Assembly (NCBI RefSeq): GCF_032393985.1
Contig: NZ_CP135918.1
Span: 372,001 to 436,000, forward strand
Source: Fischerella sp. JS2
GTDB lineage: Bacteria > Cyanobacteriota > Cyanobacteriia > Cyanobacteriales > Nostocaceae
Direction of reading: 5' to 3'
DNA length: 64,000 nt
The translations under genes and the position numbers were made by a program. Of the stretch, positions 6,176 through 28,717 are shown piece by piece (position 1 is the first letter of the stretch; every line of letters starts with the position of its first letter). Below the pieces are notes generated by a model. The model saw only the letters and a program-made list of their open reading frames with translations. It was not told where the DNA came from and ran no database searches.

Positions 6176-6456
6176 TGTTTACTACCCAACCTTACTAAAA
6201 CTTTTGCCAACATCTGCACCATCTCCCTTCCAGAAACATCCTCTCCTCGCATAAGACGGTGAATTTTACCAGTTAACACAGGCGACTCAAATTCAATCAC
6301 ATCCTCTTTATCCTCAAGATCGCTGTGGATGATTGCAACTATCCGCAACCCCTCTCAACGTGCCGCCGCATCTCGCACTACTTGGTCGCCATTTGCAGGT
6401 TGACCAAACCTGACTTTTAAAACGTCACCTTCAAGGTTGATCTGATATGAAGTCAT
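6172..6456 (-). pseudogene. Decayed csx3-like fragment running into a 58-codon frame coupled to cas10
   Basis: From an ATG at 6456 the frame reads MTSYQINLEGDVLKVRFG and then a stretch matching NDQIVKDAAVRL of the neighbouring Csx3, then stops at TGA (6355-6357). It looks like the first third of a second csx3 copy. The same frame stays open after the stop for about 60 codons, possibly from a TTG at 6348 behind a GAGAGGGG stretch, to a TGA that overlaps the cas10 ATG as ATGA. That second part (beginning LRIVAIIHSDLEDKEDV and ending VLVRLGSKQ) does not resemble Csx3 and I do not recognise it. Either it is a small real gene coupled to cas10 or it is residual open frame. The fragment is probably non-functional as a ring nuclease. 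Confidence 0.6.
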
Positions 6457-6553
6457 AGAAATTAACAGTATTTATACTTAAATTTTTATTAATCAAATAT
6501 CAATCAGTTAAGTCTCCCAAATTATACGTAGGATTATGTGTGATACAAATCAC

Positions 6554-6805
6554 TTATTTTCCTAATTTGGGGTCAAAATAGCCAATTGCACCGTAAAGAT
6601 GACTAATCTTGTGTGCTAAAACAAACGCTACAGGTATTGATACGGAGCCATTAATCTTAAGTAATTGTCCACCTCTGAGTTCACCAGAACCTACCATTGC
6701 TTCTAACCGTACCGCCGCATCTTTCACTATTTGGTCATTTTGGGTGAGTTCACCAAAATTTAGCCGTAAAGTATCTTCGCTTAACTCAACGTTGTAAGTA
6801 GTCAT
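6554..6805 (-). CDS. csx3: Csx3/Crn3 ring nuclease, truncated by an in-frame stop
   Basis: Csx3 (Crn3) cleaves cyclic tetra-adenylate and so turns off type III signalling. The predicted 83-residue product starts MTTYNVELS and contains GGQLLKINGSVSIPVA, LAHKISHLYGA and FDPKLGK. His69 and Asp78 have the spacing of the catalytic His/Asp pair described for the archaeal enzyme (inference from motif). It ends at TAA (6554-6556), but translation past this stop gives VICITHNPTYNLGDLTD, ending at TGA 6500. That is the normal Csx3 C-terminus, so a tyrosine codon has most likely become TAA and the THNP histidine is lost. A longer frame from 6862 adds 19 residues unlike the family, so the ATG at 6805 is preferred. 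Activity is doubtful. Confidence 0.82.
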   Translation of the reverse strand: MTTYNVELSEDTLRLNFGELTQNDQIVKDAAVRLEAMVGSGELRGGQLLKINGSVSIPVAFVLAHKISHLYGAIGYFDPKLGK

Positions 6806-6917: not shown

Positions 6918-8321
6918 GTGCTTGAGCAAGTTTTTCAAGATATTCCCAGCGTAGAACTGTTGCAGTGGTTAGCACGCGGTTCTCTTAAACAAAATTTACA
7001 GCGAGCAGTTCGTTTATGGGTGTGGTTGACTTCGCTGTATGGTGAAAACTGCTTGGCTTTAAATGACGCTTTTACCTATGCTCAATGGCGGGATGTGTTT
7101 TTTACTTCCACGCACCCCAAAGGTGAAACTGTTCCCAAACTACACGATAAAAACTGTCCCTGTGCCAGAACTATGGCACAATGGCTATTTGATCCAAGAA
7201 CAGGAATTTCGGAAACTGAGTGGAAGGAATCAGTTGTTTCCCACGCAGGTATAAATAAATCTCAACTAGATGAATTGCTCAAAGCACGTCTGTTTGGTGT
7301 AACTCGCCGTTCCCTCCAAGCTGATTTGGAAACTTTAGCTGAGTTGGGATGGTTAGTATATAAAAACCAACAATATTATCGCGTCGCTGAATTACCGTTA
7401 CGCCCTACAACTATAAATAATGAAGTCAACCTGTCAAAACTTGGTACTTACGAATTAAATTTTCTTCAGGAAGATTTAAGTACGATCGCTGAAAACCATT
7501 CCCAAAAAATCAACGGTGTACAACGCTTTTTCCTGAAACTTGATTACGTCATTCCCCGTAGCACAATTGATTTAGTTGAAGACTGGCAATACGAGTTAAG
7601 GCAACTTTGGACAAAAACTCCAGTTCCACCGATCAAGCTAACCTACAACAGCGCTAAGGTGGGAGATATCGTTGATTGCATCGTTTATCCGGTATGCATC
7701 TACTACGTGCAGAGAGCAGTTTATCTGTGTGCCTACGGTGAAAGTCCCCTACGACAAGGTAATTGGTATAATTTTCGCCTTGATCGCATTCAAAATATGA
7801 TCCCCTTAGACTGGACAAATCCTCAGCTTCCCGATATTTTGCTACAACGTTATCAACAGACATCTTTACCCACTCCAGATGATATTGCAGTCGCAATGAG
7901 CAAAGCCTGGGGTTTTGATTTCTATTTGCCTGCTCAACTGATGCTGTTAAGATTTGAGCGAGAATTTCACGATCGCTACGTTCAAGGTACTGAACGCCAC
8001 GATACTTTTGAGGAAATTACTTACCAGCAAGCACAACATCTAATTCGGCGCGAGGTTAAACAAGCGGAACCACAGCAGGCATTACTAAACATTTTGGCGA
8101 ATCGTTCACCGAATGATGCCTATTATCAAGTAAGTATCCGATACCAAGATTATAAACACAGAGATAATAATGTCATTATGCGCCTGCGAGCCTGGCATCC
8201 TAAATGCGAAGTCCTGCTTCCCTTTGATTTACGACAAAGTATTGCTGCTGAGGTAGCAAAAGAATTCCTGTTTTACCATCAAAATTCCCGTTGTGATGAA
8301 TACATTGAAACTAACAGATAA
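6918..8321 (+). CDS. WYL-domain CRISPR-associated protein (TIGR03985-like), likely transcriptional regulator
   Basis: This 467-residue protein is divergent from the csx3-cas10 operon across about 110 nt. It has an N-terminal helical region, a winged-helix-like stretch with FGVTRRSLQADLETLAELG (about residues 132-150), and a WYL domain around residues 255-300 containing VYLCAYGES and NWYNFRLDRI. WYL domains sense ligands such as nucleotides and often control CRISPR operons. I recall the cyanobacterial CRISPR-linked family TIGR03985 as the match, from memory only. It starts at GTG 6918. A role as repressor or activator of the adjacent operon is inferred from the divergent layout. Its stop lies 23 nt beyond the start of the following pseudogene. 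Confidence 0.82.
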   Translation: MLEQVFQDIPSVELLQWLARGSLKQNLQRAVRLWVWLTSLYGENCLALNDAFTYAQWRDVFFTSTHPKGETVPKLHDKNCPCARTMAQWLFDPRTGISETEWKESVVSHAGINKSQLDELLKARLFGVTRRSLQADLETLAELGWLVYKNQQYYRVAELPLRPTTINNEVNLSKLGTYELNFLQEDLSTIAENHSQKINGVQRFFLKLDYVIPRSTIDLVEDWQYELRQLWTKTPVPPIKLTYNSAKVGDIVDCIVYPVCIYYVQRAVYLCAYGESPLRQGNWYNFRLDRIQNMIPLDWTNPQLPDILLQRYQQTSLPTPDDIAVAMSKAWGFDFYLPAQLMLLRFEREFHDRYVQGTERHDTFEEITYQQAQHLIRREVKQAEPQQALLNILANRSPNDAYYQVSIRYQDYKHRDNNVIMRLRAWHPKCEVLLPFDLRQSIAAEVAKEFLFYHQNSRCDEYIETNR

Positions 8322-26956: not shown

Positions 26957-28717
26957 TTACCTTCTTGGCAAAATGTCTGTGGGATTGACATCTTGGTTAG
27001 ATGTGTCATCAGTAGACTGATTATTTTGATTTTGATCGGGAATAGGTATCAATGGAGTATCGGTGGGTGTCGTTGTTGGGATGTCGGTGGGTGTTTGTGT
27101 TGGGGTTTCAGTAGGTGTTTGTGTTGGTATCTCTGTCGGGATTTCGGTGGGTGTTTCTATTGGTGTTTCTGTGGGGGTTTCAGTAGGTGTCGGCTGAGGT
27201 GGGTTTTCTAATTGGATATTGAGGTTATAGTTGCTTTCGGAAGTTCCTGGAGGTAAAGTTAAATCGATCGCATATTTTCCACTAACAGGTAAAGTGCCTT
27301 GGTAGAAAGTGGTATTCTGAGCAGAAGTTTCTACTGGTTCTTCATTTGGGCCTAAAACTGTTAACACAACACCTCTTTCTTGCGCCAGCACCGCAGTTAA
27401 AGTTTGCCCTTCTTTACCCCGGAAAGTGTAGCGGATAGTTTGATTGCTTGGGATTGTACCCTCAACTTGAGTTGTGCCAGATGCATCTAAACTCAGGGGT
27501 CTACTTATAATTGTCGGCTCGTTGGTGGTGGGTGTAACTGTCGGTGTGGGTGAAGTTGTAGAATTGTCAGGAACTACTGGAGAAGGGAAAGTTTGTGTTG
27601 GGACTTCGGTTGGTTGTGATGATGGTGTACCACGAAGAGTACGTACCAGCGCCCAAGAACCAAATCCTGTTATACTCACTACCGCAATAGTAATTAATCC
27701 AATTGCCAACGGGTTGTCCAAAAATGACCTAGTGCTAGGTTCTGAAATTGTGTGACTTGGTGTACCAGGTGCAGATGGTGATGCTGGTTCAGGACGACGG
27801 CCAACTGGGACTGTTTGTACATTGGATAACCCAGGCTTGGATGCAACTGGGATAGAAGCCGGAACTAGGGGTGTTTGTTGTCCTGGAGAGTCCAATGCTT
27901 GGGCTACTTCTGTTGCGCTTGGGAAGCGATCGCCTGGTCTAAAACTCAACATCCGATTTAAAACTTGGGCAAAGTGTGGACTTACTGTTACCCAACGTTG
28001 CCAATTCCAACTCAGGAGATTTTCATCAAATAATTCCTGAGGTTCTTTGCCAGTTAGCAATACGATTGCGGTAACTGCCAGTGCATATAGGTCACTACTG
28101 GGATAAGCTTGTCCTGTTTGCATTTGCTCACTAGGCGAATAACCCAATTTGCCAACATAGGTTGCTGGTGCTGTCGGATTACCAGCTTGCAATCGTGTCG
28201 CTAGTTCTTTTACTACCCCAAAGTCAATTAAAACTGGCTTATTGTCAAGATCGCGTAAAATAATATTGTCTGGTGAGATATCGCGGTGAATAATGCCTCG
28301 AGTGTGAATATGTTCTAAAACAGGTAATAAAGAGCGCACCAACTGCAATACTTCTTCTTCCGTGAACGCACCACCGACAGCCTTACGTTCATCCAGCAAA
28401 GTACGGTAGGTTTTCCCGGCTACATAGTCTTGCACCAAAAACAATCGCTGATCTTGTTCAAATCTTTCCCGGAACTGGGGTACTTGTGGATGTTGTATTT
28501 GATACAAAATTGCTGCTTCTCGCAGGAAAAGCTCTTGTGCTTTCTGCCAAGCGACAGGGTCTATTGTGTTAGGAATTAATTCTTTGATGGCGCAAAATTC
28601 GTTAAAGCGCCTCTGGTCTTCAGCCAGATAGGTTCTACCGAATCCCCCCTGACCAAGAATTTGAACAATCTTATAACGGTTTTGCAGAACAGTACCAGCT
28701 GAAATTGGTGGTTGCAT
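26957..28717 (-). CDS. Membrane-bound Ser/Thr protein kinase with PPC-like and Thr-Pro tail domains
   Basis: A 586-residue eukaryotic-type kinase. Residues 15-275 form the kinase domain with LGQGGFGRTYLAED (P-loop), CAIKELIP (Lys), IIHRDISPDNIILRD (catalytic loop) and LIDFGVVKEL (DFG), so it should be active. A Pro/Ser linker follows, then one membrane helix (about residues 335-360), another Thr/Pro linker, and a beta domain around residues 405-500 like the bacterial PPC domain (TIPSNQTIRYTFRGKEGQ). The last 80 residues repeat PTETPTETP-type units. The kinase faces the cytoplasm and the PPC-like domain the periplasm. Targets unknown. Cyanobacteria commonly have dozens of such kinases. Confidence 0.93.
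   Translation of the reverse strand: MQPPISAGTVLQNRYKIVQILGQGGFGRTYLAEDQRRFNEFCAIKELIPNTIDPVAWQKAQELFLREAAILYQIQHPQVPQFRERFEQDQRLFLVQDYVAGKTYRTLLDERKAVGGAFTEEEVLQLVRSLLPVLEHIHTRGIIHRDISPDNIILRDLDNKPVLIDFGVVKELATRLQAGNPTAPATYVGKLGYSPSEQMQTGQAYPSSDLYALAVTAIVLLTGKEPQELFDENLLSWNWQRWVTVSPHFAQVLNRMLSFRPGDRFPSATEVAQALDSPGQQTPLVPASIPVASKPGLSNVQTVPVGRRPEPASPSAPGTPSHTISEPSTRSFLDNPLAIGLITIAVVSITGFGSWALVRTLRGTPSSQPTEVPTQTFPSPVVPDNSTTSPTPTVTPTTNEPTIISRPLSLDASGTTQVEGTIPSNQTIRYTFRGKEGQTLTAVLAQERGVVLTVLGPNEEPVETSAQNTTFYQGTLPVSGKYAIDLTLPPGTSESNYNLNIQLENPPQPTPTETPTETPIETPTEIPTEIPTQTPTETPTQTPTDIPTTTPTDTPLIPIPDQNQNNQSTDDTSNQDVNPTDILPRR

Follow-up and report, generated by a model that had tools for sequence, protein, structure and literature searches.

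The question raised by this locus is whether a type III-A CRISPR operon has lost the off-switch for its cyclic oligoadenylate signal. The window analyzed here is a 64,000-nucleotide stretch of the genome of the filamentous cyanobacterium Fischerella sp. JS2 (contig NZ_CP135918.1, positions 372,001 to 436,000). Its minus strand carries a standalone csx3 (Crn3) open reading frame of 83 codons (6805–6554) that terminates at an in-frame TAA in codon 84 (6556–6554). The frame continues past this stop for 17 more codons (6553–6500; VICITHNPTYNLGDLTD) to a TGA at 6502–6500, giving 101 residues when read through with the stop position counted as one residue. A first-pass annotation of the sequence had described a cut directly after FDPKLGK by a TAA near 6554, an intact Csx3 C-terminus running to a stop at 6500, and forms of 83 and 101 residues, all of which are borne out by the reading frame and its conserved residues. 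It had further proposed that loss of this off-switch prolongs signaling. The analysis instead favors, with a probability of roughly 70%, the redundancy-driven decay of a known Csx3 off-switch module rather than a broken alarm.

The identification of the gene as Csx3, also made in the annotation, is supported by matches of the 83-residue product to the PADLOC models Csx3-AAA (E=4.2e-23) and Csx3 (E=2.8e-18). No Pfam or NCBIfam model matches this product at E up to 1, and the TIGR02579 profile has zero matches in the whole genome; recognition by PADLOC but by neither Pfam nor NCBIfam fits a divergent Csx3 branch. Homologues of 101 codons that align across the stop position with 66–79% identity are present in many genomes of the family, and the nearest intact one among the matches listed is 79% identical. 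Because the frame is preserved past the TAA, the change must be a substitution rather than an indel. Codon 84 encodes Tyr (83 loci) or Phe (6 loci) in all 89 other readable loci among the matches listed (3 are unreadable), which shows that truncated forms are not common. Four conserved positions of the tail are unchanged in the window, namely V85 (85/85), H90 (85/85), G97 (84/85) and D101 (83/85), where the counts refer to the intact 101-residue homologues among the matches listed. The PADLOC matches and the alignments across the stop position show that the csx3 reading exceeds chance. The sequence AGGA-AAATAA-GTG, which places an AGGA six bases upstream of a GTG lying right after the TAA, could be taken to suggest a restart, with the 17-residue tail complementing the 83-residue part as a split protein. 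In intact relatives, however, this stretch is normal protein-coding sequence, and there is no hint that a restart has been selected for, which leaves a split protein extremely improbable.

A structural model of the read-through sequence (pLDDT 84.1) predicts the fold of AfCsx3. Hits 1–11 of the Foldseek search are all AfCsx3 (best E=1.2e-3), as are hits 1–5 of VIA-align (best 6yud; Z 7.6–7.1, rmsd 3.2–3.3 over 88–89 residues), although the margin is small, the next VIA-align hits being to Cat1 at Z 6.7 and tied within 1. In the model, the TAA cuts the last beta-strand (residues 83–89) and removes the helix at 96–99. A weak alignment to AfCsx3 (E=1) pairs H65 with H57, D78 with D69, K80 with R71 and H90 with H80, while the counterpart of H60 is uncertain (S68 or H69) and the position aligned to R71 is Lys in 85/85 intact 101-residue homologues among the matches listed. 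According to excerpts of the AfCsx3 study, the H60A and D69A mutants are inactive and the ring nuclease activity of R71A and H80A is highly reduced (PMC7371418). The equivalents of H57, D69 and R71 all precede the stop, and Csx3 forms stacked dimers with shared active sites, so that the 83-residue product might still work, either by itself or by contributing a half-site to a Csx3-AAA protein supplied in trans. The same excerpts describe restored activity when two inactive AfCsx3 variants are mixed (PMC7371418). Against this stand the missing strand 83–89 and the missing H80 equivalent, the tail histidine found in every intact 101-residue homologue among the matches listed. The sole other shortened copy among the 93 scored loci (G212) is moreover frameshifted, and an active 83-mer is considered very unlikely. 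With the last strand and the conserved C-terminal His removed, the 83-residue form most likely has no normal fold or cA4 cleavage and would be inactive or unstable. The open reading frame encodes an incomplete domain, and the gene is disrupted and is not counted as a functional Csx3 member.

The remainder of the csx3 frame shows no sign of long decay. Read through, it departs from the consensus at a single position among those at least 95% conserved (P54S), where the 85 other homologues show a mean of 0.78 departures and a maximum of 5. Of its 83 residues before the stop, 62 agree with the consensus, and of the 17 beyond it, 14 do (means 70.5 and 15.4); 11/85 and 23/85 homologues, respectively, show no higher agreement. 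Among the 86 terminal branches its own is the fourth longest, with a root-to-tip distance near the mean. The nonsense change is thus probably recent, yet the long terminal branch and the below-average consensus match keep this from being proven.

Directly downstream of csx3 is a second Csx3 gene, csx3-AAA (6456–6172, minus strand), which is gutted. Compared with the intact copy of a congener, it lacks 640 bp, replaced by a 4-bp filler (GAGA), and the junction (6357–6353) itself creates a TGA at 6357–6355. What is left in place of a single open Csx3 and AAA frame is the first 33 codons (6456–6358), in which the Csx3 domain is cut, and the last ~60 codons (6352–6172), which encode the end of the AAA domain and whose stop overlaps the cas10 start (ATGA). 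The break in csx3 reported in the first-pass annotation therefore stands, but the loss next door was overlooked and the local damage is larger than stated there. Decayed csx3-AAA genes often retain a 3' relic of 40–88 aligned residues on the cas10 side (L011, L012, L022, L107, L134, L136 and the window at 6352–6172), and in L011 this relic is joined in frame to an apparent cas10. Such relics are possibly kept for cas10 translation.

The genus is sampled by three genomes in the collection, including the genome that contains the window. The two congeners (G001 and G002) share the operon with the window, with main aligned blocks at 92–94% DNA identity and some short ones at 88–91%. Both have an intact csx3-AAA, with frames of 307 and 313 codons, and a standalone csx3 whose body is deleted; in these csx3 relics a Tyr codon stands where the window has the TAA. 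The window genome carries the reverse damage, with the csx3 body present but stopped and csx3-AAA gutted. In L069 and L070, the lost csx3 body is replaced by similar short filler rich in CCAAAATCTAAAATC-like repeats, and this similarity between G001 and G002 points to what is probably one shared deletion event.

The state of both genes was then scored across the family, where a csx3-domain match with E up to 0.001 occurs in 108 of 217 genomes. All standalone-type csx3 matches listed were taken into the census except G094:C57 (a duplicate of C56), giving 93 scored loci including the window; with G001 and G002 added, the total is 95. These are counts of loci and not of independent events, and they include one distant copy (L147, 46% identical). 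A csx3 gene is called intact if its frame has at least 97 codons, and csx3-AAA is called full if it has a match and a frame of 280 codons or more; csx3-AAA is scored as not found in L010–L038 on the basis of ~1.8 kb from the csx3 start, and the L011 copy, whose frame is long only through fusion to cas10, is entered as a relic. Among the matches listed, 91 of 95 loci have an intact standalone csx3, which answers the possibility raised by the annotation that the truncated form might be common in relatives. A full csx3-AAA is present at 54 of those 91 loci. At 7 it has shrunk to an AAA-only frame of ~200 codons, 12 carry a relic or a broken copy, and at 18 csx3-AAA was not found. The four broken standalone genes are those of G001, G002, G212 (frameshifted) and the window, and the first three are accompanied by a full csx3-AAA. 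A rule by which every locus keeps one Csx3 gene was considered and dropped: with csx3 broken in 4/95 loci, two of these probably reflecting one event, and csx3-AAA not full or not found in 37/91 others, a single double loss is about what chance would give and the rule has no statistical support.

The window is nevertheless the only one of the 95 loci with a standalone csx3 or its relic, among the matches listed, that lacks any full-length Csx3 gene. This singularity would fit an assembly error or a culture-only mutation, in which case the natural strain keeps the 101-residue Csx3 and has lost csx3-AAA alone. The change is indeed a single base, and the rest of the frame is free of excess departures at conserved positions. 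However, the genome is one 7.02 Mb contig with 99.99% completeness, the other operon genes are open, the frame is kept, unlike with homopolymer indel errors, and the standalone csx3 of both congeners is dead as well and that of G212 is frameshifted, so its loss is biologically possible. An error or culture artifact is given a small share of the probability.

Several other arrangements of these genes were noted. The AAA-only frames that follow a standalone csx3 in seven loci (L024, L117, L119, L123, L129, L138 and L145) look as if they were fusions minus the Csx3 domain. Metagenome bins labeled Patescibacteria/CPR (L064, L065 and L066) contain a standalone csx3 that is 49–55% identical to that of the window, possibly through transfer or a binning error. 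Besides G001 and G002, csx3-AAA occurs without a neighboring standalone csx3 at ~22 loci, of which three were inspected: G082 has a full csx3-AAA with a Cmr1-type gene 7 kb away, G014 has a full csx3-AAA followed by only 38 residues of Cas10 match, and G207 has AAA, Cas10 and WYL fragments with no credible Csx3 and is a ruined locus outside the 95. The other ~19 are assumed to be III-B-type because they resemble the III-B copy of the window genome.

The operon beyond the two csx3 genes consists, on the minus strand, of cas10/csm1 (6175–3812, 787 aa, identified by the Csm1 profile), csm2 (3803–3324), csm3 (3321–2344) and csm4 (2342–1290), each identified by its profile, and csm5 (1285–1, 429 aa, with the last 5 bases beyond the window). 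These are followed outside the window by cas6, csx1 and a CARF-only gene (genome C1:369319–371996), and a WYL-domain CRISPR-associated regulator (TIGR03985) is encoded divergently on the plus strand (6918–8321). Bit scores pass the curated cut-offs for Csm1 (600.8 against 170), Csm2 (68.8 against 30.6), Csm3 (223.7 against 90), Csm4 (336.5 against 55) and Csm5 (81.7 against 38.3), and by these profiles the operon is of type III-A. Cas10 carries the GGDD cyclase motif, as the annotation had noted, at residue 575, and the HEPN motif of Csx1 is intact (RKSIAH at 379). A direct-repeat search of window positions 1–30000 plus 20 kb past the window's left end finds no CRISPR-like array. The repeat search also records a run with a 12-base period at window positions 27054–27197.

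Selection on the operon was assessed by comparing the window genome with G001 and G002. Values of dN/dS are 0.08–0.39 for the WYL gene, cas10, csm2–csm5, cas6 and the CARF-only gene. The CARF-only gene has the smallest values (0.08 and 0.12), the seven others lying at 0.14–0.39. The comparable other genes of the operon are under purifying selection. The csm2 comparison between G002 and the other-genus genome G036 gives a dN/dS >1, from 6 changes only. The csx1 gene was left out because it differs in the congeners: in the window genome, the gene lying between cas6 and the CARF-only gene encodes a 420-aa Csx1 (C1:369931–371193; L067:17832–19094), whereas G001 and G036 encode at the same spot a 416-aa CARF-HEPN protein (L070:17211–18461 and L148:1101–2351). 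The latter two differ from each other by 2 residues and 3 bases and are ~24% identical to the window Csx1, while the flanking cas6 and CARF-only genes are 88–96% identical to those of the window genome. By these identities, the effector between cas6 and the CARF-only gene is exchanged.

The operon thus combines two broken csx3 genes with an intact cyclase motif and an intact HEPN motif in Csx1, and searches of the genome for Crn2 and Csx16 give no match over the cut-off. It is on these facts that the III-A arm could be without an off-switch, resulting in prolonged cA4 signaling and a more aggressive abortive defense. The genome, however, retains other possible off-switches, as the annotation had allowed. 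At 5.80 Mb, a type III-B locus (Cas10b, Cmr3–Cmr6) carries a full 329-aa Csx3-AAA, and the III-A operon ends, outside the window, with the 165-aa CARF-only protein (C1:369319–369816). According to a published survey, some Csx1/Csm6 effectors also cleave their own activator, 39% of cA4 loci (211/536) have an associated ring nuclease and ~4% of ring-nuclease-positive loci (10/242) have more than one (PMC12409355). A deletion of the putative csx3 of Synechocystis left defense against an invader plasmid unaffected, as stated in excerpts of PMC9676260 citing Shah et al. 2019. The local loss and the intact cyclase proposed by the annotation hold, but the consequence it drew for signaling is weakened by the remaining III-B csx3-AAA and CARF-only genes, the survey figure, the Synechocystis deletion and the Csx3-free operons described below, and prolonged signaling is considered unlikely.

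Of the 217 genomes, 28 carry the CARF-only gene, with a total of 32 full-length copies whose open frames are 167–221 codons long. Its full-length PADLOC match is to the CARF1--CARF model, and its predicted structure is a CARF fold with no effector domain. The model matches the CARF domains of Can2 and Csm6 (Z up to 16.2) and ring nucleases at Z 12–15, among them Sis0811 (Z 15.1), Sis0455 (13.7) and Sso2081 (13.3), with the effectors Can2 and Csm6 matching as well as or better than the ring nucleases. CARF domains can also act as plain sensors. The protein may be a ring nuclease, a candidate assignment that amounts to a guess. The idea that it is a truncated CARF-HEPN protein was rejected on its near-constant size in the 32 copies, although related CARF-HEPN frames of 312–471 codons exist. 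Of eighteen loci around CARF-only genes of other genera, 11 show a csm operon with cas10 and 7 show none in the stretch examined. Those 11 operons have no Csx3 match (E up to 1e-4) in 5 cases, an AAA relic in 1 and a full, divergent csx3-AAA in 5. An exclusion of Csx3 by the CARF-only gene is thereby rejected; this type of operon occurs without Csx3, yet the two can coexist.

The favored explanation is that a tandem module of csx3 (101 aa) and csx3-AAA (~310 aa), located upstream in the III-A operon, is in decay. The standalone gene has been hit, probably recently, by the nonsense change at codon 84, and the neighboring csx3-AAA is destroyed by an internal deletion. This loss is probably tolerated because the genome still has alternative off-switches: the CARF-only protein that closes the operon, as a presumed ring nuclease, the III-B Csx3-AAA presumably acting in trans and perhaps self-limiting cleavage by Csx1. 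A more specific proposal, given a fairly low probability, is that the CARF-only protein is an uncharacterized ring nuclease that took over cA4 removal, freeing csx3 and csx3-AAA to decay by separate routes within the genus. Separate routes are observed, with deletion of the csx3 body in two genomes and a nonsense change plus csx3-AAA deletion in the third. Retention of csx3-AAA in 5/11 operons with the CARF-only gene indicates that this gene alone does not make Csx3 dispensable.

The event is ordinary in kind and useful as a natural experiment, since the same operon exists in two module states across three genomes. If the decay reading is correct, one cyanobacterial genus tests the need for a dedicated Csx3 off-switch in type III signaling, and the conserved CARF-only protein becomes a possible Csx3 replacement. 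Among the papers searched, none describes the tandem csx3/csx3-AAA module or its decay.

The locus can finally be compared with four known systems. Like Crn3/Csx3 (AfCsx3; PDB 3WZI, 6VJG and 6YUD), the csx3 gene has a matching predicted fold, lies within a type III locus and, when read through, has the His/Asp/His residues; it differs in that its frame is terminated at codon 84, which leaves the last strand and H80 equivalent unencoded. The Csx3-AAA fusion, called Csx3' and described in excerpts of PMC7371418 as common in cyanobacteria, is matched by the window relic, which over its last 58 residues shares 91% identity with a congener's intact copy but has 640 bp deleted and a stop at the junction. 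The CARF-only protein resembles the Crn1 ring nucleases (Sso2081) in its CARF fold, similar size and lack of an effector domain, yet scores 15.5 bits against the NCBIfam Crn1 model (NF040581; cut-off 125) and is not classed as Crn1. With type III-A (Csm) operons, the window operon shares cas10/csm1, csm2, csm3, csm4, csm5, cas6 and a CARF-HEPN Csx1, and it differs from them in a Cas10 with no HD motif in its first 150 residues.
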